NCBI RefSeq assembly: GCF_000934755.1
Contig: NZ_KN882175.1
Location: forward strand, 86,456-150,455
Length of the DNA stretch: 64,000 bases
Source: Desulfonatronovibrio magnus
GTDB taxonomy: Bacteria; Desulfobacterota; Desulfovibrionia; Desulfovibrionales; Desulfonatronovibrionaceae
Direction: 5' to 3'
A program made the translations under genes and the position numbers. This document shows, in pieces, positions 29,790-46,240 of the stretch; the first letter of the stretch is position 1, and every line of letters begins with the position of its first letter. The notes under the pieces were generated by a model. It searched no databases and was not told the origin of the DNA. It saw only the letters and a program-made list of their open reading frames with translations.

Positions 29790-31718
29790 ATGTTTAAAGT
29801 ATTTAAAATCGCCCTGATGCTGGCAGGTATATTACTGACCATTTTCATTCTGGCGGCCATACTAATACCCATGCTTATTGATGTTAATGACCATAAAGAC
29901 AGAATTTCTCAGGAGATTGAAAATGTTACAGGTTATCAGGTTGTCATTGACGGGGATGTGGAGCTTTCCTTTGTCCCATGGATAGGGATTGGGCTGGGAC
30001 AAACTCATGTCAACAATCCTCCCGGTTTTGACGACACACCCATGGCATCCTTAGAGCAACTTCAAATCAGGATCAAATTCTGGCCACTTTTTGCAGGAAG
30101 ACTTGAGGCTGAAAAAATCGTGCTCAATGGCTTGAATTTAGACCTGATCAAAGATGAGAATGGTCGGGCAAACTGGCTGTATGCTTTTGATGATGCAGAA
30201 AAAATGGTTCAGGAAGAAATACCCCTCAATGATGAATTGCCTGCTGATACTGATGAACAAACCTCTGGCTTTTTCTTTCTGATGCCGGACATTGAAGGCC
30301 TTGCTATCTCCAACGCTGGAATTTCTTATGATGATCGGCAGAACAATACAGGATTTTCACTATCGGATTTTCACCTCAGCACCAGCAGAATTGCCCTTGA
30401 CTTGCCTATTAGTATTGAAGGTGGCTTTAATCTGAAAATTAACGAACCAGACCTTGGCTTCAAAAATAATTTCAGTACAACAATGTTACTGGATACTTCC
30501 AGCCAGGTCTTAAGTGGACAAAACTTTGACATGAGTTTCAATATTCAGGGAGATATACTGCCTGAAGATATTACAGATGGACACATTGTCTTTGATGTTA
30601 ATTACAATTTACAAGAAAATTCAGTTCAAGTACCGGCTTTCCAGTTTGATATGCTTAAGACTGAACTGATGGGTCATTTTGGAGTGAGTGGGATGAACTC
30701 GATTCCTGCTGTTTCTTTCAACATTGAAGGTAGAAATATCACTCAAAATATGTTTATGGTTCCAACTGCTTCAGGTACCAAGGCAGAAAATCAGGATTAT
30801 TCCGGTGACAATAAGCACTCGCCCATGGATCTATCATTTTTAAACGACTTTTCTTTAGATGGAGAGCTGACACTTTATGACACTTTAATTTCCGATGTGA
30901 CTATAGACCATTTATATCTAAAAATTTCATCTCGAAATGGACGTATGGACATTTCTCCTTTCAATGCACGACTTTATCAGGGTGAACAGACAGCAGAAGT
31001 GTCCCTGGAAGATCTGGATGGAGTATTGCAGATAACTGCCCGGCAAACCCTCAAAGATCTTCAGACTGGCCCGTTAATAACCGATATTACACAAAAAAAA
31101 TTCTTTTCAGGCAAGGCTGATATGGATCTCAGCCTTGTTACATCTGGTCATAACCCCGACGCGTTAATTGCCAACCTTGCCGGCAGTTCCAGTGTGCAGA
31201 TCACAGACGGTGTCATTAAAGGAATTGATCTGGAAAGGATGATAAGGGATGTATTTGCTGTTTCTGCCGGGGAAATCAACACCCTGACTCAGCGTCAAGG
31301 TGAAACAGAATTTACCAGCCTTGGAGCTGACTTTGATATTAACCAGGGCATTGCAAGTTCACAAAATTTGCTGCTCAATTCTCCAGCGATTAAACTGCAG
31401 GGCGATATGGTAATCAATTTACTTGAGTCATCCATGATTTCACACTCCCAGGTCAGTTTAGATGGAGCACTCAAGCAGGAAATTGAAGCACGCCACAATA
31501 CACGTGATCCCAGAATACCGTTAAGAGTACATGGCCCCTTGGACAACCTTTCTTTCGGGCTTGACAATGAAGCAGTCCTAAGAAGCCTTATTTTGCGACA
31601 TGGAGATGGTGCAGCGCGAAAACTTCTTGATGCTATCACTTCTCCAGACGAGGAACCAGAAACCTCTGAACCACAATCTGATGCTCTCGAGGGGCTGCTG
31701 CGCAGAATTATGCCTTGA
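29790..31718 (+). CDS. AsmA family protein
   Basis: 642 aa. AsmA-type proteins are anchored in the inner membrane, extend into the periplasm and are linked to outer-membrane lipid or phospholipid supply. An N-terminal helix (residues about 5-28) is followed by the family opening DVNDHKDRISQEIENVTGYQVVIDGDVELSFVPWIGIGLG. The C-terminal third has the AsmA_2 signature, with FSGKADMDLSLVTSGHNPDALIANLAGSSSVQITDGVIKGIDLERMIR. AGGAAG precedes ATG 29790. It stands alone with its own promoter candidate. Confidence 0.9.
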   Translation: MFKVFKIALMLAGILLTIFILAAILIPMLIDVNDHKDRISQEIENVTGYQVVIDGDVELSFVPWIGIGLGQTHVNNPPGFDDTPMASLEQLQIRIKFWPLFAGRLEAEKIVLNGLNLDLIKDENGRANWLYAFDDAEKMVQEEIPLNDELPADTDEQTSGFFFLMPDIEGLAISNAGISYDDRQNNTGFSLSDFHLSTSRIALDLPISIEGGFNLKINEPDLGFKNNFSTTMLLDTSSQVLSGQNFDMSFNIQGDILPEDITDGHIVFDVNYNLQENSVQVPAFQFDMLKTELMGHFGVSGMNSIPAVSFNIEGRNITQNMFMVPTASGTKAENQDYSGDNKHSPMDLSFLNDFSLDGELTLYDTLISDVTIDHLYLKISSRNGRMDISPFNARLYQGEQTAEVSLEDLDGVLQITARQTLKDLQTGPLITDITQKKFFSGKADMDLSLVTSGHNPDALIANLAGSSSVQITDGVIKGIDLERMIRDVFAVSAGEINTLTQRQGETEFTSLGADFDINQGIASSQNLLLNSPAIKLQGDMVINLLESSMISHSQVSLDGALKQEIEARHNTRDPRIPLRVHGPLDNLSFGLDNEAVLRSLILRHGDGAARKLLDAITSPDEEPETSEPQSDALEGLLRRIMP

Positions 31719-35619: not shown

Positions 35620-36137
35620 GTAATCGTTTAGCTTTTTTATGAAACCAGGGGACAGGCACTAACGGGCCCTTACAAGTAACTACAATCGTTTTGCTAATAA
35701 AATCACATGTTTACAGTTTTCTAATTTTGACGATTATTGCTTATGATTGATGCTCATTTGCCAGAAAAGTTCCGTCAAAGATGGGAGCTTTGCGCCTGGC
35801 ACAGGGACTGTCCCTCGCTGTGTAAATTTTTTCATTGAAGCAAATTTCTTCCAGGAACCAATGGAGTATCAATCTGTTTTATAGTACCTCGCGGGGACTG
35901 TCCCAATTTCCAAATATGGGACTGTTCTTCAAGGTGGAGGCGGCTTCCAGCCGCCTGGAATTAAATAGCCTGCAGGATGCAGGCTCCACTTTTAAGACAG
36001 TTACCCACACGTTCGGTCCCGGGTCGCCCGGGTGAGGAGCTACTAAGTAACAACCGATGTTGTAAGCGTCTCATTTTTGAGGCAGGCGGTTCCGTAAAAG
36101 CCAGTCCCCGTGCACATGCAAAGTGCAAAACTATTAC
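35620..36137 (+). mobile_element. Family B element B3, split by A7
   Basis: Left end GTAATCGTTTAGC (35620-35632) and right end CAAAACTATTAC (to 36137). B body pieces are on both sides of A7: GGGGACAGGCACTAACGGGCC before it, and GTAAAAGCCAGTCCCCGTG after it. No matching flanking 8-mers remain. A7 therefore landed inside an already old B copy, at a different B position from the insertions in B1 and B6. Confidence 0.65.
35672..36039 (+). repeat. Family A repeat, copy A7, nested in B3
   Basis: Left edge follows CTT (35669-35671). It carries the GGAGGCGGCTTCCAGCCGCC and GCCTGCAGGATGCAGGC palindromes in place of the usual GAAAAGTGACAGACTC segment, as in A3 and A9. The right trinucleotide is CTA. 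Confidence 0.8.
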
Positions 36138-36163
36138 AAACGATCCTATCTATATCTTCCAGG

Positions 36164-36484
36164 TTAAAATACTACATACCTGTCACACTCTTCTATCATT
36201 TCCGCATTTCTTGCCTGTGTTGCAAAATCCTTGAAACCAACTCCAGGTACTTCCCCTGACAGCCCAAGGGCTCTAAAACTCACATCGCAAACTGAAAGCC
36301 TGGCTTTACCCAACAGTTTGGCAAAATTTTCATCCTTAGTCAGCATAACTGATTTGCCAGTAAAAAATATCTGCACTTTCACACCTTTTTTATCTGCAGC
36401 TGAAGTCAGATTGATCACCTGCTCCAGATACTTATCATCCCTGACAAGTATGCCCATTGTTTTAGATTCACTTGATTTACTCAT
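36164..36484 (-). CDS. DsrE-like small protein
   Basis: 106 aa with a single alpha/beta domain of the DsrE/DsrF/DrsH-like type (ILVRDDKYLEQVINLTSAADKKGVKVQIFFTGKSVMLT). Family members take part in sulfur transfer or are redox-linked scaffolds. There is one cysteine in the core (LSVCDVSFRALGL) and one near the end (IEECDRY). It is the last gene of the minus-strand series that runs from yedE and tusA. The start ATG 36484 has an AGGAGAATA-like site upstream. A sulfur-carrier role is inferred from family and neighbours. Confidence 0.72.
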   Translation of the reverse strand: MSKSSESKTMGILVRDDKYLEQVINLTSAADKKGVKVQIFFTGKSVMLTKDENFAKLLGKARLSVCDVSFRALGLSGEVPGVGFKDFATQARNAEMIEECDRYVVF

Positions 36485-36510
36485 TCAAAATATTCTCCTA
36501 TATTTCACTA

Positions 36511-36951
36511 CTAAAAAATTTCCTTGGCCTTTTCCAGAATGATATTTTTTACTTCCTTACTCGTTGAATAATTTAATATCAAAAGGGTCATGGCTTCCTT
36601 AAATAGTTGCTCCTGATTTTTGCCCTGATTTTCTTGAATACTTTCTAATACTTTTAATATGTCAAAAATATCTTTATTCAAACTGATTTTCACCTCAACT
36701 TGCTCTTGCTCCAGTTTGTCATCCAACGGCGAAATCTCAGATAAAAGATGGTAACATTCTAATATCTTTTCCAAACATTGCTGCTTGAAATATAGAGCCC
36801 CAAGAGACTTTACAACATCCTTGGTCGCTTGAATCTGATCAGGAGGCAGTTCATCCTTTATAAGGGCTTTCTTGGCTGCTTCCAGGGCACTATCATAACA
36901 ATTGCATCTCTCCAGCACTATGGCGGATGCCAAGTCCTTATCCATGTCCAT
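36511..36951 (-). CDS. Small helical protein of unknown function in the sulfur cluster
   Basis: 146 aa, not recognised. It is almost wholly helical by composition. Residues about 10-75 have a TPR-like alternation (ASAIVLERCNCYDSALEAAKKALI, ATKDVVKSLGALYFKQQCLEKILECYHLL), and a charged second half ends ILEKAKEIF. There are four cysteines, two as CNC. It lies 26 nt ahead of the DsrE-like gene, so they are probably co-translated. A helper role for sulfur-transfer proteins is a guess from position. Confidence 0.55.
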   Translation of the reverse strand: MDMDKDLASAIVLERCNCYDSALEAAKKALIKDELPPDQIQATKDVVKSLGALYFKQQCLEKILECYHLLSEISPLDDKLEQEQVEVKISLNKDIFDILKVLESIQENQGKNQEQLFKEAMTLLILNYSTSKEVKNIILEKAKEIF

Positions 36952-37083
36952 AAATAAGCTCCTTATCTCTACAGCGAATCTTTTTTAATGAATGTAGCAG
37001 CGCCAGCCTGCACTGCTGTATCTAAAAATTAGAATTTACCTCAGCAAATTTACTGGTATAACTTCACACTGAATCTTAAAAAA

Positions 37084-37257
37084 CTACCACCAGCATATCA
37101 CTTTATTATGGCTGAAGATATCGTCCACAAGGTTTTCCCAATCAACGTCAGGCCTGAAAACTTCAACAACCTTACAATCATTTTCATCACAAGTACTTCT
37201 AACAATATCTGATACCATTTTTTCAGGTTCGGATTTGAATATATGCAGTACCTTCAT
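37084..37257 (-). CDS. 57-residue small protein in the sulfur-transfer cluster
   Basis: Short frame from ATG 37257 to TAG, with AAAGGAG 11 nt upstream. The protein begins MKVLHIFKSEPEKMV and ends DDIFSHNKVICWW. The start (beta strand, SEP turn, helix) is like the N-terminus of TusB/DsrH-sized or DsrE-like folds. It has three cysteines (STCDENDCK and VICWW). Position between two DsrE-like genes on the same strand, correct codon use and a good ribosome site argue for a real gene. It may be a trimmed DsrE relative or a novel small partner. Confidence 0.6.
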   Translation of the reverse strand: MKVLHIFKSEPEKMVSDIVRSTCDENDCKVVEVFRPDVDWENLVDDIFSHNKVICWW

Positions 37258-37454
37258 AAAATTTTATACTCCTTTAATATATGCAGCCAATTTTTGACAG
37301 TGCCGTTAAAAAAAAATAGGGATTAGTGTAAACTTTTGGGCAATAAAGTCTAATTTTCCGACACTCGCTTCAGCAAGTCACTACCAGGGAATCGGAAAAA
37401 CCAGCTCAAATGAGTGCCGGATCCCAGGTCCACCCATAGTGTATCTGATTCTAA

Positions 37455-37742
37455 CTAAAAAGGGATAACATGCTGCGATTCATTAATCATTGCTGCAAGT
37501 TTGTCCTGATCAATAGGCTTAAATCCATATTTTTCAATATTAGCTGGGTTATTTGAATAACGTTCACCCTCCATTTCATCAAGAAAGCCCATGTTATCCT
37601 CATAAGCCTCGTTCATATCAGCGATTTCATGGTCCAGCACTACCATATTTACAGTTGCTGCATGTAAAAGCAGACCTAAGCTTGTTCTGAGTCCTTCATA
37701 TTGCTGGTCGATATCTTTTATAATTACTGTAACCCCAGACAT
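37455..37742 (-). CDS. DsrE-like protein downstream of tusA
   Basis: 95 aa. The first 50 residues, SGVTVIIKDIDQQYEGLRTSLGLLLHAATVNMVVLDHEI, match a DsrE-type strand-helix start. The rest is acidic and ends FKPIDQDKLAAMINESQHVIPF. No cysteine is present, so it cannot carry persulfide by itself; a structural or regulatory DsrE relative is more likely. ATG 37742 is chosen because AAGGGG lies just upstream; the in-frame GTG at 37748 overlaps that site. Start and the tusA stop are within 3 nt, which implies translational coupling. Confidence 0.68.
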   Translation of the reverse strand: MSGVTVIIKDIDQQYEGLRTSLGLLLHAATVNMVVLDHEIADMNEAYEDNMGFLDEMEGERYSNNPANIEKYGFKPIDQDKLAAMINESQHVIPF

Positions 37743-37744
37743 GT

Positions 37745-37990
37745 TCACCCCTTTTTGATGTAATAATTAGTCGACCCGTCATCTGCATCCTGCAAGCCCA
37801 AAAATTCATTGCCATTCTTGTTGCCAAAGTCAGGTATGTCATTCTTAGACCCTGGATCAGTGCCTAAAATGTGAAGTATTTGTCCTGAATCCATGTCTTT
37901 CAAGGCTTTTTTAGTCTTCAGCAGTGGCATGGGGCAACTCAATCCGCTTGTATCAAGAAATTTGTCCGCAGTGATGTTTGATAAATCCAT
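37745..37990 (-). CDS. tusA: TusA/SirA-family sulfur carrier
   Basis: 81 aa with the family core: FLDTSGLSCPMPLLKTKKALKDMDSGQILHILGTDPGSKNDIPDF. The cysteine of CPMP is the persulfide-carrying residue, and the GTDPG turn matches the usual tDpgs motif. A ribosome site (AAGGAGG-like GGAGGTTAGCC) lies ahead of ATG 37990. It is the first gene of the short series and stands downstream of yedE; repeats A8 and C4 lie between. It probably receives sulfur from the YedE-imported compound or from a desulfurase and passes it on. Confidence 0.9.
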   Translation of the reverse strand: MDLSNITADKFLDTSGLSCPMPLLKTKKALKDMDSGQILHILGTDPGSKNDIPDFGNKNGNEFLGLQDADDGSTNYYIKKG

Positions 37991-38121
37991 GGCTAACCTC
38001 CTTTATATATCAGTTAATTAATCATTTGGGTAAACAGTGAACTTAAGTCTTTACACGCAGCCAAAACTAAGGATATCAAATTAAAGTAACTATCGTTTTA
38101 TTTTAACAAATTCAGATACTT

Positions 38122-38455
38122 ACAAGTAACTATAATCGTTTTTGTAATAAAATCAGACGGTTATAATTTTCACAATTTTTATAATTTTTACATATGATTG
38201 ATTCTCAATTTCCTGAAAAGTTCCTTCAAAGATGGGAACTTTGCGCCTGGCACAGCTTCCTGCCCGGAGGCTTACAGCCCGGAGGGGGACTGTCCCTCGC
38301 TGTGTATATTTTTTCATCAAAGCAAATTTCTTACAGGAACCAATGCAGCATCAATCTTTTTTATAGTACCTCGCGGGGACTGTCCCAATTTTCAGAAAAG
38401 TGACAGTATCCTAAAGTTACTCACAAGTTCGGTCCCGGGCCGCCCGGGTGAGGAG
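38122..38455 (+). repeat. Family A repeat, copy A8 (near-identical twin of A12)
   Basis: 334 bp, flanked by CTT (38119-38121 and 38456-38458). Compared by eye with A12 at 61718-62051 it has the same length and one difference, close to the left end (TATAATCG against TATAGTCG). All other copies differ at many sites. It carries the CCCGGAGGCTTACAGCCCGG insert. Confidence 0.88.
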
Positions 38456-38458
38456 CTT

Positions 38459-38776
38459 CTAAGTAACTAAAATCGAATATGTAATAAATTGAGAGTATTA
38501 CGGATTTACCATAAAAATTACTTCGGTCGCTTAGGCTCCCTTGTGGGTGACAGGTTTTGAGCAACTACATCCCTGACAACTCAGGTGTCATTGCGAGCGA
38601 GTCTTCGAGCGCGGCAATCTCAAACGCGTTAAGGCTATTACCTCTTTTTTTGTGGCTTAAGCCACATTTTGAAGAAGCGGCTGGAGCCGCAAGAGTAAGA
38701 CGTCCCCAGGCTGGAGCCTGGGAACGAGGTGTATGAGTTACTCACAAGTTCGGTCCCGGCCCGCCCAGGTGAGAAG
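38459..38776 (+). repeat. Family C repeat, copy C4
   Basis: Long form with the GTGGCTTAAGCCAC, CGGCTGGAGCCG and CCAGGCTGGAGCCTGG palindromes. It shares CTT 38456-38458 with A8 and CTT 38777-38779 with the A fragment that follows. Confidence 0.83.
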
Positions 38777-38779
38777 CTT

Positions 38780-38872
38780 ACAAGTAACCAGAATCGTTTT
38801 TCTAACAAAATCAGACAGTTACATTTTTCAAATTTTTACGATTTATGCTTATGATTGATGCACATTTGCCAG
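38780..38872 (+). repeat. Left-end fragment of family A
   Basis: ACAAGTAACCAGAATCG through GATGCACATTTGCCAG, the first 93 bases of an A unit. The rest is missing. It ends 26 nt from the yedE stop. Confidence 0.72.
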
Positions 38873-38898
38873 TTTAGTTAGGTGAAAATGCAGCCGCA

Positions 38899-40095
38899 CT
38901 AAAAAATAACAAACTTTTCCGTTCTTTCGTTCCATATAGCCCAGAACACCCAGGCAAAAAGTATTAGAAGATAGAGAGGCAAGGCAAACTCCCAGCCAAA
39001 TACTGCCGGCATAAATGTGCCAGAACCTATCATTTCAATCAGTCCGGTATTGTGAACTATTTTATACCCTATGGAATTAAAGATGGAAAAGGAAACCAGA
39101 GTGAGCATCAGCTTGGTATGTCCCTCACCAGCCCGCCAAAGCGAACCAGTTCCACATCCACCGGCAAGCAACATGCCAAAGCCAAAGATTACCCCACCAA
39201 TCAGGCTGCCCAGCCAGAAAGGATGATGTACCCCCATCATATCAGGCTGAAGATAGTTCCACTTAATGACCGCAGACCCCAAACCGTAAATCATCAGACT
39301 CATGGCTATAACCCTGATCATTTCTGCATCTCCAGTCATAAATGGTTCACGAAATGCCCTGACAAAACACATTCTGGATCTATGCATGGTTATGCCGATC
39401 AACGCCCCAAAAAACAAAAGTCCGCCAATTTGGGTATGACCCTGAGCAGAAAAAATATAAAAAGATGCAATAACGCCAATTAATAGTGCTCCACCAATGA
39501 ATGGACTAACCTTACCCCAGTCAATGAGGGGCTCTTTCTTTAAATCGTGAACCTTGGGAGGCCGGGCTGCCTGCTGCGGAATATTGCTGATTTCCCAGAT
39601 TAGAAAGCGCAAACCAAAATATGCACCAACGCCAAGACCAATCATCATGGCATAACCACCCATGGAAAACATGCCGATGGCATTGTAAAAACCTCCGATA
39701 TTGCAGCCAGCGGCAAGAGCAGCTCCAAGCCCCATGAAAGCTCCGCCGGCAAGACCTTTCAAGTACTCATAGGGAGGCGCCATGCGAATGCGAAACTGTC
39801 TTCCCATCAATGCCGAAGCCATAGCACCGACAAAAAGTCCAATATTGGTCATGGACATGGTGCTGAGCCATGGTACAACAGGTCTGTCTGCACTCAAGCC
39901 AATACCATACAGTATCCAGTCCCCCCAGTTTCTATAGCCCCCAGTAATCCCCCAGGGACTGTGCCACATAAAAATCATTAGTGCCAGTATTGCGAGAAAT
40001 ATTCCTGCAAGCCATCCAGGCCAGTTGCGTTCGAATACCGCAATATAGTTTTTACGAACCTCTTCCCTGACGCTTTCCCAGAATATGCTAGCCAA
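38899..40095 (-). CDS. YeeE/YedE family sulfur-compound transporter
   Basis: 398 aa, about ten membrane helices. It belongs to the YeeE/YedE (TsuA/PmpA/B) family that imports thiosulfate or related sulfur species. Conserved cysteine-glycine hairpins appear in both halves: ALAAGCNIGGFYNAIG and LLAGGCGTGSLWRAGEGH, with MHRSRMCFVRAF between. The frame extends to 40191, but the TTG at 40095 has AAAGGAG six nt ahead and is the better start. tusA and DsrE-like genes lie downstream on the same strand, the common yedE-tusA arrangement. It probably supplies sulfur to them. Confidence 0.88.
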   Translation of the reverse strand: MASIFWESVREEVRKNYIAVFERNWPGWLAGIFLAILALMIFMWHSPWGITGGYRNWGDWILYGIGLSADRPVVPWLSTMSMTNIGLFVGAMASALMGRQFRIRMAPPYEYLKGLAGGAFMGLGAALAAGCNIGGFYNAIGMFSMGGYAMMIGLGVGAYFGLRFLIWEISNIPQQAARPPKVHDLKKEPLIDWGKVSPFIGGALLIGVIASFYIFSAQGHTQIGGLLFFGALIGITMHRSRMCFVRAFREPFMTGDAEMIRVIAMSLMIYGLGSAVIKWNYLQPDMMGVHHPFWLGSLIGGVIFGFGMLLAGGCGTGSLWRAGEGHTKLMLTLVSFSIFNSIGYKIVHNTGLIEMIGSGTFMPAVFGWEFALPLYLLILFAWVFWAIWNERTEKFVIF

Positions 40096-40389
40096 AGTAG
40101 ACTCCTTTACTAATTTAACGAATCCTGATATTTTGCTGATATCCTTTACAAACCATGCTTTGTTGTTTTGCAGGTAAGTATTATTCACCACATATTTTCA
40201 CTTTTCGTAAAGCTGATATTCTGACTGGTTTTCGCCATTACTATTAGTATCAACAGAAAAACAATCAGGATACAAGCTGCCCTCAGAGCATGGTGAATAA
40301 ATATTTTTGCAGAAGAACTTTACTTTGAAAGCCTGATTCAGCAACAAAACCTGGAAAAAATTGGCAACCTGTAAAAAACAGGAACAAAC

Positions 40390-40516
40390 GTAACTGTTTA
40401 GTTTTTTTGAATAGCAGGGGACATGCGCTTTTGCCGACCTCAAACCCAGCACAGCCGGACTTTCCGGCTGCAAGAGAGCCATTCCCCTTCCAGCTTAAAA
40501 AAGTGTCGCTGTAATT
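40390..40516 (+). repeat. Chimeric B/D repeat (D2)
   Basis: Begins with a family B-type end, GTAACTGTTTAGTTTTTTT, and finishes with a family D end, AAAAAAGTGTCGCTGTA. The middle (GGGGACATGCGCTTTTGCCG, CAGCCGGACTTTCCGGCTG) is D-like. The two families are thus joined in one unit, by recombination within the shared GGGGACA core or by a deletion. The bases at 40192-40389 hold no recognised feature. Confidence 0.6.
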
Positions 40517-40688
40517 CTATCAAGCCAAACTTACTCAAATGACAAATCCATAGCAACCTTTGTTCCAGCTTTAAATAATGATATAATACACTATTATTGT
40601 TCTTGTTTTTGATGGCACTTTGCACACATTGACTGTTAGATGATTAATCATATGTAAAAGTTTTATGCTATCTTTTCTCCACATTATT

Positions 40689-40707
40689 AAGTGTCGCTGT
40701 AGTGTTA
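40689..40707 (+). repeat. Solitary family D end
   Basis: AAGTGTCGCTGTAGTGTTA, the complete 19-bp D terminus, without a D body. It lies 26 bp ahead of the start of the CULT gene and may contribute to that gene's leader. Confidence 0.55.
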
Positions 40708-40733
40708 CACGACCTGACAAAACTAAAACTATT

Positions 40734-41132
40734 ATGATAGAGATCAGCATGTTTAGAACAGAATCAGAGCCAACTCATTTTGTAAAACACGAGTCAGACA
40801 GCAGAGTTGAAGATGAATACTCAGATAGAGATATCCTGTGCCTGAGCTGCAAAGCTCCAATAACTAAGGAAAGTGAAGCAGTCAGGATAAATGACTCTCA
40901 CCGGCATGTCTTTGTGAATCCGCATGGACTGGTTTTTGAAGTGGGCTGTTATGGCAATGCTGGCAATGTTCTATGCGTTGGCCAGATTACCTCAGAATTC
41001 ACGTGGTTTCCAGGATACTCATGGCAGGCTGTGAGCTGTGCGCTTTGTCTGACGCACCTTGGATGGGTATATTACTTAGATGGCAACGAGGCTTTTTTTG
41101 GCTTTATTTTAGATCGTCTTGCAAGACAGTAA
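40734..41132 (+). CDS. Bacterial CULT-domain (cereblon-type) protein
   Basis: 132 aa, a stand-alone CULT domain, the fold that in human cereblon binds thalidomide and cyclic-imide degrons. Zinc ligands are two CxxC pairs: C36/C39 (ILCLSCK) and C102/C105 (SCALC). The aromatic cage is W91, W97 and W111 (FTWFPGYSW and HLGW). The 6 and 14 residue spacing equals that of cereblon W380/W386/W400, and the C102-W97 and C105-W111 distances also agree. VNPHGLVFEV is the usual strand before the pocket. No signal peptide is visible. ATG 40734 is preferred; the frame opens earlier, across a repeat end. The gene stands alone, and the natural ligand is unknown; uridine-like compounds and cyclic imides are known in vitro ligands of relatives. 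Confidence 0.9.
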   Translation: MIEISMFRTESEPTHFVKHESDSRVEDEYSDRDILCLSCKAPITKESEAVRINDSHRHVFVNPHGLVFEVGCYGNAGNVLCVGQITSEFTWFPGYSWQAVSCALCLTHLGWVYYLDGNEAFFGFILDRLARQ

Positions 41133-41244
41133 TGATGATGCAACCACAGCTTTTTGCCAGTGATGCACGCTTAAAGAATGTTAAAAAAATGTTATCGTTA
41201 TTGGTTATTCAGTTATCTTTTTTTACAGGCAAACAAATGTATCC

Positions 41245-41293
41245 GGTTGGAACGAGGAGAGTCCGGAACTGCAGGATTCTCCTCGTTCCAACC
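41245..41293. terminator. Long perfect hairpin after the CULT gene
   Basis: 16-bp perfect stem GGTTGGAACGAGGAGA (41245-41260) with its complement at 41278-41293, and a 17-nt loop that can itself pair TCC with GGA. There is no T run. It may act as a factor-independent or processing structure for the CULT transcript, or may be an unassigned small palindromic element. B4 inserted 13 bp beyond it. Confidence 0.55.
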
Positions 41294-41306
41294 AGGTATA
41301 TTAACT

Positions 41307-41488
41307 GTAATAGTTTAGCCATTTGCATGTGGCACGGCTTCCTGCCCGGAGGCATACAGCCCGGAGGGGGACTGGCTCTTCCGGGACTCACTTGTCTCAA
41401 AAGTGAGACGTTTAAATTACCGTTGACCCTCAAGTGGGGCCCGGAGTGCCTGTCCCCTGCTTTCCTTAAAAAAGGGCTAAACTATTAC
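41307..41488 (-). mobile_element. Family B MITE-like element B4; 8-bp target duplication
   Basis: 182 bp with 14-bp terminal inverted repeats GTAATAGTTTAGCC (41307-41320) and complement (41475-41488). The direct repeat TATTAACT is present at 41299-41306 and 41489-41496. No repeat is nested inside. The body is the B core with CCTGCCCGGAGGCATACAGC and GTGAGACGTTT. It is a clean, complete insertion between the CULT gene and the M23 gene. Confidence 0.88.
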
Positions 41489-41502
41489 TATTAACTGAAT
41501 TT

Positions 41503-42336
41503 TCACTCCAGCAATAGCATAGGATCAACTGCCTGACCAAGAACATAGACACCTAAGTGCAGATGCGGCCCTGTCGCCCTGCCAGTCATGCCCACAAGGC
41601 CTACAAGGTCTCCCTTAGAAATATACTCACCCTTGTTTACATTGATTTCACTTAAATGCATATAAACAGTCACAAACCCAAGACCATGGTCCAGAATTAC
41701 AGTTTTGCCTCCAAAGTAAAAATCACCTGTTAAGATCACTCTGCCCGTTTCCATGGCCTTGACAGGTGTTCCCTCAGGTCCTCTTAAGTCCACTCCCCTG
41801 TGCGGTGCCCTTGGCTCATCATTAAGAAAACGCCTGACTCCAAAAGGAGAGCTTACGCTTCCTGATGCCGGCCGAACAAAATCAGTTGTCCAATATCTTT
41901 CAGGACTGAGAGTGTTCAGGGCATTCACAGTCTTCTCCCGTTCTCTAACTATACGATCGATAACTTCCTGAGGCGGAGTTACCATGGATTCAGGAAGCGT
42001 TAGGCGCTGCTCAGGATAGTCCTTGGCGGATATATATACATTAAACTCTTCAACAATCTGCTCATCGCCAAAATCAAAAGAAATAGACAATGGATACTTA
42101 CCTTTATGATCCAGCCCTGCACTTAGAAGAATGCTCTGTGTTCCGTTGAAATCTACCGGATACTCAACAGTTTTTTCAAGCCATTGAACTGTAAGGGAAT
42201 CTGGATTTTTATCAGACACAAACTCCACCCAAAACGGTTCACCCTGCCCTACCCTTTCGGGCAAGTTAATGGTTGCTGCTTTGACAGGCAAAACCCATAA
42301 AAAGAATACCAGTATGGCCAGCAATGCTCTTTTCAT
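41503..42336 (-). CDS. M23 family (LytM-type) metallopeptidase, exported
   Basis: 277 aa. The signal peptide MKRALLAILVFFLWVLPVKA is followed by a beta-rich region of about 100 residues. The C-terminal LytM domain carries the zinc ligands: H and D in PHRGVDLRG and the HxH of GPHLHLGVYV. The catalytic-side histidine is in VYMHLSEI. The enzyme or pseudo-enzyme would act on peptidoglycan cross-links in the periplasm. All four zinc and catalytic positions appear present, so it should be active. GGAGG precedes ATG 42336. It is the last gene of the minus-strand series from ycjX, after C5. Confidence 0.9.
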   Translation of the reverse strand: MKRALLAILVFFLWVLPVKAATINLPERVGQGEPFWVEFVSDKNPDSLTVQWLEKTVEYPVDFNGTQSILLSAGLDHKGKYPLSISFDFGDEQIVEEFNVYISAKDYPEQRLTLPESMVTPPQEVIDRIVREREKTVNALNTLSPERYWTTDFVRPASGSVSSPFGVRRFLNDEPRAPHRGVDLRGPEGTPVKAMETGRVILTGDFYFGGKTVILDHGLGFVTVYMHLSEINVNKGEYISKGDLVGLVGMTGRATGPHLHLGVYVLGQAVDPMLLLE

Positions 42337-42474
42337 ATCTCAACCTCCAATTTTTATTCCATCATAACCTGAATTGACAAACATTATACTCGAATTGTCT
42401 GCAGGGACGTATGACCTGCAATTATTCAGGCAGGGACAGTTTCTCTCATGCTATTAACTACCTTAAAAGTTAAT

Positions 42475-42734
42475 ATAATCGTATATGCAATAAAATCAAA
42501 ACATTATGGTTTTACCATACAGATTGCTTCGGTCGCTTAGGCTCCCTCGTGGGTGACAGGTTTTGAGCAACTACATCCCTGACAGCTCAGGTAACATTGC
42601 GAGCGAGTCTTTTTACCCTGAATAAACGCAGTGTAGGCGCAGCCATTCAACTGGGGCGAGCGCGGCAATCCCTAACCCGTTAAGGCTATTTCAAGTTACT
42701 CGCAGGCTTGGTCCCGGGCCGCCCGGGTGAGGAG
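42475..42734 (+). repeat. Family C repeat, copy C5, overlapping the TgpA-type stop
   Basis: Left flank CTT 42472-42474; the right flank is CTG. It has the GCAGTGTAGGCGCAGCCATTC insert seen in C3. The transglutaminase frame runs through its right end on the other strand and finishes at 42686. Confidence 0.8.
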
Positions 42735-44773
42735 CTGACAAGTAAATCTTTTAATGAATTCTCTTTTTCCCGGTCAGGATGTGGACCATACCTCTGCTCG
42801 TTATATACTTTTTTAATTCTTTCGACTTTGTCGGGAAAATACAAAGCCCACCATTGCCATATCTTATCCTCAGCACCAGGGGAACTCAAGTTATGTCTGC
42901 CCGGTGTTTTTGATGCCAATAGCTTCCAGGCCCTTATCCTGAACTGTTTACCTGTAGGATGGCTCCTCAAGGGAATCAAGCCTGACAGGACAAGTATCAT
43001 AATCAAACCAGATACAACCAGCCCCACCTTCATCCATAACTTGCCATCCTGGAAAACATTTTTCAGGATATTTTCAAAATCTGAAATTTTAATTCCGGTC
43101 CAGGTCTGATCAAAGGATGTCCTGACAGAGCTCCACATTCGTGCCTGCCTGGCAAGGTTTAAATCAATAACCCAATTGGTCCATTGCCACCTTAACCAGT
43201 CAACAACACGTACCGAAGGGGAAACCATTTGATCTGCAGGAATACTGTCTGTTGCTCCGTCTTCATCCTGCCCTTCATCCACATTCAAATCAAGGTAACG
43301 GGTTGGATCAAGCCTTACCCAGCCTCTGTCCGCAAACCATGCTTCTACCCAGGCGTGAGCCATGCTGTCCCTTATTATCCAGTATTCACCCACAGGATTG
43401 TATTCTCCTCCCCAGAAACCAACCACTACCCTTGAGGGGATGCTGTTCAGTCTCAAAAACATCACCATGGCAGCAGCATATAATTCACAGTACCCGGTTT
43501 TGGTCTGAGTCAAAAATTCTTCTAATGTCTGTCCATGTTCAAACCCGACTGGCGCCTGCAGACTGTATGAAAAACCCTGAGAGTTGAAATAAAACAGAAT
43601 GGACTGAGCAATATCCCATGGCTCACTGTCATCTTCAGCAAAAGTGCTGGCAATGTCGTGCACACTTTGACTGATATCATCAGGAATTCGCGTTCCTGCT
43701 GACTTTTCTTCAGGGGTCAAAGGCTTTGTATTTTCCATGACTGAATAAAGCTCATATCTGACAGCACTTTCCGGAGCTTCATCAAGCTTCACAGTGCCAT
43801 CACGGTTATAATTAACTCCGGATAAATTCATAATCCTGCCGGGAAAGTACAGTCCGAACAAATGCTCTGTTCTCCCCGGATTAAGAGTAATAGTCTGCAA
43901 AACAACATCCTCACCAACAATTGAGGATCGCAGTGGTGTTGTCTGGTAGTCATGCGGGGCCCCGGGAATCCAACTTGAACCGTCAGTCTGCCATAGAACA
44001 GCCCCCCTCCAGTATAGGTGGGAAGAGTGGTAAACCTGATCTATCTGAGCCCTGAAAGCAATCCTGTTAGATTCAGCAATACCTGCAATACCACCAGGAG
44101 TCATCTCTGGACTGAATCCAGTTCGAGCTATTTCAAGTCCTGCCCCCAAGTTCAGCATAGGATTGATATTTCTTGGAAAAGCGAAAAAAATCAAAAGCCC
44201 CAGCAAAACCGTAATCATGGTCAAAAAAAGAGCAAAACCAGCTAACTTGAGAGAAAAAAACTTGCTCAGACGAAAATTTCTTCCAGACTTAACCGCCTGA
44301 TCAAAGATGTGCTGCCACAATATCAAAACAAGACCTGTAAAAAAATATGAGAAAATTAAAACTCCAAAACCCAGATCAAATCTGATTATTGAAGCCACTC
44401 CAAGTCCCAGAATTCCTAAACCGCAAAACTGAAAGGCATCTCGCTGTTTTTTAAGCTCCATCAGCTTAATGGACAACATAAGGGCAAGGGCCTGGGCCAT
44501 GACTATCTGCCAGCCCTGATCCCAATTAGTTACTGTGGCAAGACCGCTCAGAGCCAGGACAAGCATTAGCCTTAAACTGTAAGAGAAAACTTCATTTTTT
44601 CCCTGAAAGGCATGGACAAACACAAGAATAACTGCCGCAATCCAGAACCAGACTATCCACCAGCTCAAAATGGGGTTCAAGGCAAGCATTACACAAGATC
44701 CTGAAATACTTCCCAGGATGGGCGTCCAGTACCTGATGCTGCCAGGTGTTGCGTAAGAAGATAAGTTGTGCAT
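42686..44773 (-). CDS. TgpA-type membrane transglutaminase (DUF3488 and transglutaminase-like)
   Basis: 695 aa. About six helices come first (DUF3488). A periplasmic transglutaminase-like domain follows with the triad cysteine in TKTGYCELYAAAMVMF, histidine in MAHAWVEAW and aspartate in VRLDPTRY. A further helix (LVVSGLIMILVLSGLI, about residue 605) and a cytoplasmic tail complete it. The last 15 residues, SSPGRPGTKPASNLK, are translated from the right end of repeat C5. The original end is therefore lost or lengthened. It follows MoxR and DUF58 genes, the usual trio, with repeat A9 between. Confidence 0.93.
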   Translation of the reverse strand: MHNLSSYATPGSIRYWTPILGSISGSCVMLALNPILSWWIVWFWIAAVILVFVHAFQGKNEVFSYSLRLMLVLALSGLATVTNWDQGWQIVMAQALALMLSIKLMELKKQRDAFQFCGLGILGLGVASIIRFDLGFGVLIFSYFFTGLVLILWQHIFDQAVKSGRNFRLSKFFSLKLAGFALFLTMITVLLGLLIFFAFPRNINPMLNLGAGLEIARTGFSPEMTPGGIAGIAESNRIAFRAQIDQVYHSSHLYWRGAVLWQTDGSSWIPGAPHDYQTTPLRSSIVGEDVVLQTITLNPGRTEHLFGLYFPGRIMNLSGVNYNRDGTVKLDEAPESAVRYELYSVMENTKPLTPEEKSAGTRIPDDISQSVHDIASTFAEDDSEPWDIAQSILFYFNSQGFSYSLQAPVGFEHGQTLEEFLTQTKTGYCELYAAAMVMFLRLNSIPSRVVVGFWGGEYNPVGEYWIIRDSMAHAWVEAWFADRGWVRLDPTRYLDLNVDEGQDEDGATDSIPADQMVSPSVRVVDWLRWQWTNWVIDLNLARQARMWSSVRTSFDQTWTGIKISDFENILKNVFQDGKLWMKVGLVVSGLIMILVLSGLIPLRSHPTGKQFRIRAWKLLASKTPGRHNLSSPGAEDKIWQWWALYFPDKVERIKKVYNEQRYGPHPDREKENSLKDLLVSSSPGRPGTKPASNLK

Positions 44774-44921
44774 AACTATCTGAGAGTTGGGATAACTTGA
44801 AAATAAAAGTTATCAGTAAATTGTTAATAACTGGACAGTGAAAAGTTATCCCCGTCATGCCGGACTTGATGCGGAATCCAGGAATTATCTTAGTGTAAGA
44901 TCGCCCAGAGTTATTGAGAAG

Positions 44922-45288
44922 CTCCCCACCAGGGCGGCCCGGGACCGAACCTGCGAGTAACTGTCTTTAAAGTGGAGCCTGCATCCTGCAGGCTATTTAA
45001 TTCCAGGCGGCTGGAAGCCGCCTCCACATTGAAGAACATTCCCATATTTGGACATTGGGACAGTCCCCGCGAGGAAACGTTAAAAAGTTTGATACTGCAT
45101 TGGTTTCTGGCAAAAATCGGTTTTAATGAAAAAATTTACATAGCGAGGGACAGTCCCTGTGCCAAGCGCAAAGTTCCCATCTTTGACGGAACTTTTCTGG
45201 TAATTGTAAGTGAATCTTAAGGAAAAATCGTAAAAAAATGAAAATCATAAAAGCTTGAAATAATTGACATAAAAATATAGTTACTTAG
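44922..45288 (-). repeat. Family A repeat, copy A9
   Basis: AAG on both sides (44919-44921 and 45289-45291). It carries the GGAGCCTGCATCCTGCAGGC and CCAGGCGGCTGGAAGCC palindromes. It shares private changes with A11 (ACGTTAAAAAG and AAAATCGGTTTTAATG), so these two form a subfamily. It ends 7 nt from the DUF58 gene's stop. The gap on its other side contains a short E-like piece (GTCATGCCGGACTTGATGCG). Confidence 0.83.
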
Positions 45289-45295
45289 AAGTTGT

Positions 45296-46240
45296 TTATA
45301 GTTCAGAGTTATGAACCGGCAACGGCTCAACAAGAGCCAGAGACCATAGAGCCTGTTCCAGGTTAAGTTTGCCTGAACCAGATATTTCAACTGCTGGCAG
45401 GTTCAACTTCCATGAGGTATTAGACAGAACCATTTCATCCAGCAACGTCCGAAAAAGTGAAAGCCTTTTTTCAGTATCTAAGTGTTGATAAACAGGATCA
45501 TCCCAGTCCAACACAAGAGCCTTAGATGCTTCATGAGCAAAACTGTGAGCCGGCCATTGCGAATTGTCTGCTCCCATGGCAGGTTTTTGCCAGTCAAGAC
45601 GACGCCACACAATACTGGACATACTTTCGCCGGGGCGGTATTGCCTGATACCTTTCCATTCTCCCAGACCCTGCCCGGTGTTGAGAGTTTCTGACTGCTT
45701 TTCATTCTTTGCAAAAACCTGTTCCATAAGATCATTATCCGGAGCAGGAGAAACCACAATCACAGCCCTGGCATCATAGTATCCTCCTCGAACCACAAAG
45801 CCAAAAGGAAAAGACGAAGTTACTTTAACATAAGGTAACGAAACTTTGCCTCGATGCCATGGGGTCCATGGCAGGAAAACTTCACTGGATGCTTTAGAGT
45901 TAAGAACGGGTATAACCTGGGTATGGTCTTCCAGGCCAACATCAAGAACAATGGATGCCAGGCGTTTGTTATTTTTAATACTTATCTGAATTAGATTTTG
46001 TCTTTGGGCTGTAGGAACTTTGCTGGAATTTGCTTTTATGCTCAGTCCGGAAACATTATAAAGAGCAGTCAGGCCTGAAAGAAAAAGAAGACTCAACAAT
46101 AAAGAGGTGAGCAGGAATAGAACATTATTATTGCTGTTGACAGCGGCGAGTCCCAATACCATGGTCAAAAGTACATAAATCCAGCCCGAAAGGCTCAGCC
46201 TGGCTCTGATTGTACTTACTTTTCTACTATCCCCAGACAT
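45296..46240 (-). CDS. DUF58 family protein
   Basis: 314 aa. Two N-terminal helices (IYVLLTMVLGLAAVNSNNNVLFLL and the following) anchor it. The soluble part holds the DUF58 hallmark EWKGIRQYRPGESMSSIVWRRLDWQKP, which corresponds to the R-Y-pGD-n-R-IhW motif, and precedes a VWA-like region, ALVLDWDDPVYQHL. It is the usual partner of MoxR ATPases and TgpA-type proteins; biochemical role is unresolved. It begins within the end of the moxR frame (14-nt overlap), so translation is coupled. Confidence 0.9.
   Translation of the reverse strand: MSGDSRKVSTIRARLSLSGWIYVLLTMVLGLAAVNSNNNVLFLLTSLLLSLLFLSGLTALYNVSGLSIKANSSKVPTAQRQNLIQISIKNNKRLASIVLDVGLEDHTQVIPVLNSKASSEVFLPWTPWHRGKVSLPYVKVTSSFPFGFVVRGGYYDARAVIVVSPAPDNDLMEQVFAKNEKQSETLNTGQGLGEWKGIRQYRPGESMSSIVWRRLDWQKPAMGADNSQWPAHSFAHEASKALVLDWDDPVYQHLDTEKRLSLFRTLLDEMVLSNTSWKLNLPAVEISGSGKLNLEQALWSLALVEPLPVHNSEL

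Follow-up and report, generated by a model that had tools for sequence, protein, structure and literature searches.

A stand-alone CULT-domain protein from Desulfonatronovibrio magnus, a conserved bacterial relative of cereblon and putative reader of C-terminal cyclic imides

The stretch of 64,000 nucleotides from Desulfonatronovibrio magnus analysed here (the window) encodes a protein which, judged from sequence comparison and a predicted structure, is a member of the bacterial CULT group. Its gene is vertically inherited, common in sulfate-reducing bacteria, and under strong purifying selection. By analogy with human cereblon, the preferred reading of its function, with a probability of roughly 0.45, is that the protein would read cyclic imides at the C-termini of damaged proteins or peptides and pass them on, or shield them, via a partner. 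Thalidomide-type drugs and most targeted protein degraders have cereblon as their receptor, and here its pocket exists without the ubiquitin machinery that it serves in eukaryotes. The bacterial CULT group was described in 2015, with Desulfonatronospira thiodismutans named in the alignment (PMC4287342). To this knowledge are added the scale of the group, its vertical inheritance, an N-terminal motif, and the residues H58 and C72.

The frame at 40734-41132 (+) is complete and encodes 132 amino acids without an internal stop. It is a real, uninterrupted frame, as given in the preliminary description; its start, in contrast, is probably the second ATG at 40749 (MFRTES..., 127 amino acids), since two congeners begin with MYR... 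at the same place. The gene was found once in a search of the 4.8 Mb genome. The architecture is that of a stand-alone domain of 127-132 amino acids including about 30 disordered N-terminal residues. The LON domain and the DDB1-binding insert that precede CULT in cereblon are absent from the ORF, and no fused domain was present in the CULT ORFs examined. An apparent fusion (L111, a 336-codon frame) was judged artefactual, the frame upstream being open. The coordinates of the gene and its features are compiled in Table 1.

Table 1. Positions in the window of the CULT protein gene and its sequence features.
Feature	Position	Strand	Remarks
CULT protein gene	40749..41132	+	127 aa from the likelier start (MFRTESEP...); with 40734 as start, MIEIS is added
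N-terminal motif MFR, form in the window of the family-wide [LF][LF]R-x-P-like motif	40749..40757	+	
Linker between motif and CULT domain	40758..40826	+	variable, mostly disordered
Zinc motif 1, C36-x-x-C39	40839..40850	+	100% in 106 relatives
H56-x-H58, bacterial-type motif on hairpin	40899..40907	+	H58 100%, H56 91% of 106
Hairpin tip N62-P63-H64-G65 (NPxG)	40917..40928	+	N, P, G 100%
C72	40947..40949	+	98% of 106 bacterial sequences
Cage Trp 1, W91 (human W380)	41004..41006	+	
Cage Trp 2, W97 (human W386)	41022..41024	+	
Zinc motif 2, C102-x-x-C105	41037..41048	+	100% in 106 relatives
Cage Trp 3, W111 (human W400)	41064..41066	+	

Searches of PDB chains with phmmer gave the Magnetospirillum CULT protein as best match (E 4.8e-20) and human cereblon at E 1e-12 to 1e-14, a similarity far beyond chance. 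With a profile built from 40 relatives, the values were 1.6e-36 and 1e-19 to 1e-22, respectively. The only Pfam family matched was Yippee-Mis18 (PF03226), below threshold (22.9 bits; cut-off 26.6), and NCBIfam yielded nothing useful for the protein; routine annotation would therefore probably call it hypothetical.

An AlphaFold2 model was built from 78 sequences. The pLDDT values of the domain blocks (residues 31-132) were 89-98, and hairpin strands were predicted at residues 57-61 and 67-73. The first structure matches of the model were entries of the Magnetospirillum protein MsCI4 (Foldseek E 3.3e-11), followed by human cereblon. Comparison by VIA resulted in Z 20.1-20.4 and an rmsd of 1.2-1.3 Å over 101 residues at 35-36% identity for MsCI4, and in Z of about 18 at 29% identity for human cereblon. 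The beta-tent fold of the bacterial CULT group was thus found in the model, by Foldseek as well as by VIA.

Conservation of single residues was read from 106 non-redundant bacterial CULT sequences. Invariant among them were the four Cys, the three Trp, N, P and G of the hairpin, F92, G110, and F121. The preliminary description had proposed a stand-alone CULT domain with two CxxC pairs and a three-tryptophan cage of spacing 6 and 14. Each of these points stood: the pairs C36/C39 and C102/C105 are present, W91, W97 and W111 are intact, no LON or other fused domain was found in the ORF, and the fold predicted for the protein matches that of the Magnetospirillum CULT protein (Z 20, 1.3 Å over 101 residues). 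Neither a loss of cage residues nor a mismatch of the predicted fold, the two findings named there as refuting, occurred. In the alignment with the 106 bacterial sequences, human cereblon has Ala at the position of H58 and Thr at that of C72; no description of the bacterial conservation of these two residues was found in the cited CULT and cereblon literature. C72 is Leu in L064 and L072, the sole two members of family f5 sampled, and H58 is kept in both. A shared metal site of H58 and C72 is therefore unlikely.

Bacterial members of the group had been called few. This does not hold: the gene was present in 41 of 61 relatives and in 39 of 395 genomes of the phylum, and a genome-wide pattern scan of 84,980 species genomes found at least 383 coding sites in named genomes that match the CULT pattern. 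The best 80 of the 383 sites, from which the taxonomy was taken, were nearly all in records of sulfate-reducer type, the names of a few being Nitrospirae/Thermodesulfovibrio and Spirochaetes, so that the spread outside Desulfobacterota is under-sampled. The scan also places the gene in the culturable species Desulfofustis glycolicus, Desulfocicer vacuolatum and Pseudodesulfovibrio pelocollis. No CULT gene was found in 72,556 plasmids, 50,697 phages and the viral contigs searched. In a maximum-likelihood tree, the window protein grouped with its own genus (support 98/96), and the gene tree tracked the family labels with 19 changes (minimum 18, shuffled mean 28.7). For pairs of close relatives, dN/dS of the CULT domain was about 0.05-0.2. 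The role of the protein is dispensable, as several near-complete genomes of the family, among them G008 and G010, are without the gene. The size of this vertically inherited family and the strong selection on it indicate that the pocket has a bacterial job.

The usual locus in the family consists of panB/dtd upstream (divergent), CULT, and an M23 peptidase gene downstream (convergent). Family neighbours kept in the window are the M23 gene (41503-42336) and an upstream AsmA-like gene (29790-31718); the stretch between the latter and CULT contains a FapA gene and a TusA/sulfur-transport cluster. The genes nearest to CULT are the sulfur-uptake cluster and the M23 peptidase gene. The cluster (37745-40191), composed of TusA and a YeeE/YedE-type sulfur transporter, is inserted between the ancestral family neighbours and CULT. 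A perfect palindrome, ATGATTAATCAT, is located at 40640-40651, some 100 bases ahead of the start of CULT.

A survey of 106 homologous loci showed that the nearest neighbour on either side runs in the direction of CULT in half of the cases, and that neighbours within 60 bases occur upstream at 18 and downstream at 13 of the loci. An operon partner was rejected, as neighbours differ between clades, few are close and none is constant; guilt by association thus gives nothing general. In one Desulfobacterales clade (12 loci including duplicates: L067, L068, L092, L104, L108, L117, L127, L129, L137, L141, L142, L157), a gene resembling asparagine synthetase and a further ligase-like gene are divergent from CULT, and EF-G is mostly downstream. 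An explanation by imides of Asn, suggested by the divergent asparagine synthetase, was discarded because this arrangement is kept in one clade only.

Dispersed, non-coding intergenic repeats of 50-150 nt were detected around 36000-46000 on both sides of CULT. Units of 52-87 nt lie at 36000, 38415, 38736, 42694 and 44907, and units of 58 nt at 38240 and 41322. They are of the types GTTACTCACAAGTTCGGTCCCGGGCCGCCCGGGTGAGGAGCT and CCCGGAGGGGGACTG, occur in both orientations and elsewhere in the window too, and are REP- or MITE-like with no transposase seen. No transposase was recognised among the translations of the window ORFs, which were inspected by eye, with Pfam applied to ten neighbours. The placement of the gene between mobile elements, as described earlier, is therefore not supported: no transposase was seen with the repeats near CULT, and within the family the locus is ancestral, with its synteny kept. 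With respect to defence or phage functions, the CULT protein had no match in PADLOC or PHROGs.

Expectation-maximisation on 68 CULT sequences of less than 70% identity revealed a motif resembling [LF][LF]R-x-P, whose median distance to the first zinc Cys is 33 residues (IQR 30-35) on the N-terminal side. The log-likelihood ratio was 179, whereas 12 sets of shuffled sequences gave 135 ± 7. A strict form, defined as two hydrophobic residues followed by R or K, any residue and P, was present in 16 of the 68 sequences (shuffle mean 2.3, maximum 8 in 500). The Arg of the motif was conserved in alignment A3 also, and the copy in the window (MFRTESEP) is a weak form. Part of the signal may reflect shared descent and not constraint. 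No description of the motif was found in the cited CULT and cereblon literature. The linker that follows varies among relatives and is often acidic. Residues 1-30 of the window protein had pLDDT values of 53-59 per block in the AlphaFold2 model, and the same region of a relative (L155) had 42-55 in a second model; packing of motif and linker on the CULT domain is thus not predicted.

Uridine and C-terminal imides are both live candidates for the ligand of bacterial CULT proteins. Binding of C-terminal imides was reportedly described in a 2022 study in which the bacterial protein served as the crystallographic model. In humans, cereblon recognises cyclic imides at protein C-termini, and PCMT1 can produce these from C-terminal Asn (PMC11974815, PMC13001092). 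We infer, by analogy, that the ligand class in bacteria is the same as in human cereblon, and that handover proceeds through the N-terminal motif. In this mechanism, the three-Trp cage of the zinc-stabilised beta-tent would bind the flat ring of a cyclic imide. The ligands would be aspartimide or glutarimide C-terminal ends on damaged proteins or peptides, as for human cereblon, arising from backbone cleavage or through isoaspartyl methyltransferase. The CULT domain, having no enzyme of its own, would pass on or shield its catch through a partner, which could be a protease, a repair enzyme or a transcription factor; the [LF][LF]RxP-like motif on its flexible linker would be the best candidate docking site.

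The genome of the window organism has a true PIMT gene (E 4.7e-61). Nearly all relatives, with or without CULT, possess PIMT, Lon and ClpS, so that co-occurrence of these with CULT lends imide reading no support; PIMT permits it. A split cereblon with a separate LON-domain protein was rejected, since LON matches are found in every genome and none tracks CULT. Every genome had at least two such matches, nearly all in full-length Lon frames of about 800-1,000 codons, as were both of those in the genome of the window organism; short LON-domain frames were mostly from fragmented assemblies. The short N-terminal motif is the one piece of evidence for the adaptor step. The more specific proposal that bacterial CULT proteins are ubiquitin-free adaptors, in which the domain would catch imide-ended proteins and the motif would dock a protease or repair enzyme, is quite improbable at present. 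If true, the damage-reading step of cereblon would be older than ubiquitin. The motif offers a handle for finding the partner, and together with H58/C72 it makes the question of ligand and partner easier to test.

The protein could instead sense or buffer uracil, uridine or other pyrimidine-like small molecules through a protein partner. Uridine and deoxyuridine are bound in the same cage of the Magnetospirillum homologue with affinities comparable to that of thalidomide (PMC4449219), structure 4v31 was among the fold matches, and the pocket residues are conserved. However, no pyrimidine-metabolism gene was recognised by eye in the recurrent neighbour clusters and the listed tight-operon neighbours, and the authors of the uridine study found no biological context for uridine (PMC4449219); this explanation is unlikely. 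A role as a structural or regulatory zinc protein, in which the cage would bind a modified side chain or a non-imide protein end in the manner of a yippee- or Mis18-like reader, is likewise doubtful. It is in line with the beta-tent fold common to CULT and Yippee/Mis18 (PMC4287342) and with Yippee-Mis18 matches in Pfam (E up to 0.01) in 29 of 40 CULT members, but every sequence mark, the Trp cage included, is of CULT and not of yippee type.

The conservation of H58, C72 and H56 in the 106 bacterial sequences (Table 1), and the absence of H58/C72 from human cereblon, might point to a second site on the hairpin and thus to a metal-dependent catalyst or other enzyme, e.g., for imide hydrolysis. 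This is very unlikely in view of the replacement of C72 by Leu in the two f5 members that retain H58, and a structural role of the three residues in the hairpin is a simpler account. For the Magnetospirillum homologue, in which H-x-H and Cys are the same, 47 entries are deposited under a single sequence, and we know of no enzymatic activity reported for it. That CULT is cargo of mobile elements without a house function, as the short dispersed repeats on both sides might suggest, was rejected in substance, because the gene tree follows taxonomy, the flanking order is kept in the family, plasmids, phages and viral contigs gave no match, and purifying selection is strong.

Among characterised proteins, MsCI4 (cereblon isoform 4, MGR_0879, PDB 4V2Y) of Magnetospirillum gryphiswaldense is, like the window protein, a single domain. 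The two share the zinc site, the Trp cage, the NPxG hairpin, H-x-H and the hairpin Cys at about 36% identity. MsCI4 is the only protein of the bacterial group for which ligand binding is known; it binds thalidomide and uridine, and its hairpin becomes ordered upon binding (PMC4449219). The first zinc Cys of MsCI4 is preceded by only about 23 residues, which leaves no room for a motif at about -33. The protein of Desulfonatronospira thiodismutans (WP_008870657.1), likened through the published alignment (PMC4287342), belongs to the same family and CULT group in another genus. Yippee/Mis18 proteins (PF03226) are of the same beta-tent superfamily, and the window protein scored below the Pfam gathering threshold for them. 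The thalidomide-binding domain of human cereblon (residues 318-425) has fold, zinc site and the three Trp in common with the window protein, which differs in being without the LON domain and the DDB1-binding part, in having Phe in place of human H378, and in carrying H58 and C72 where human cereblon has Ala and Thr.
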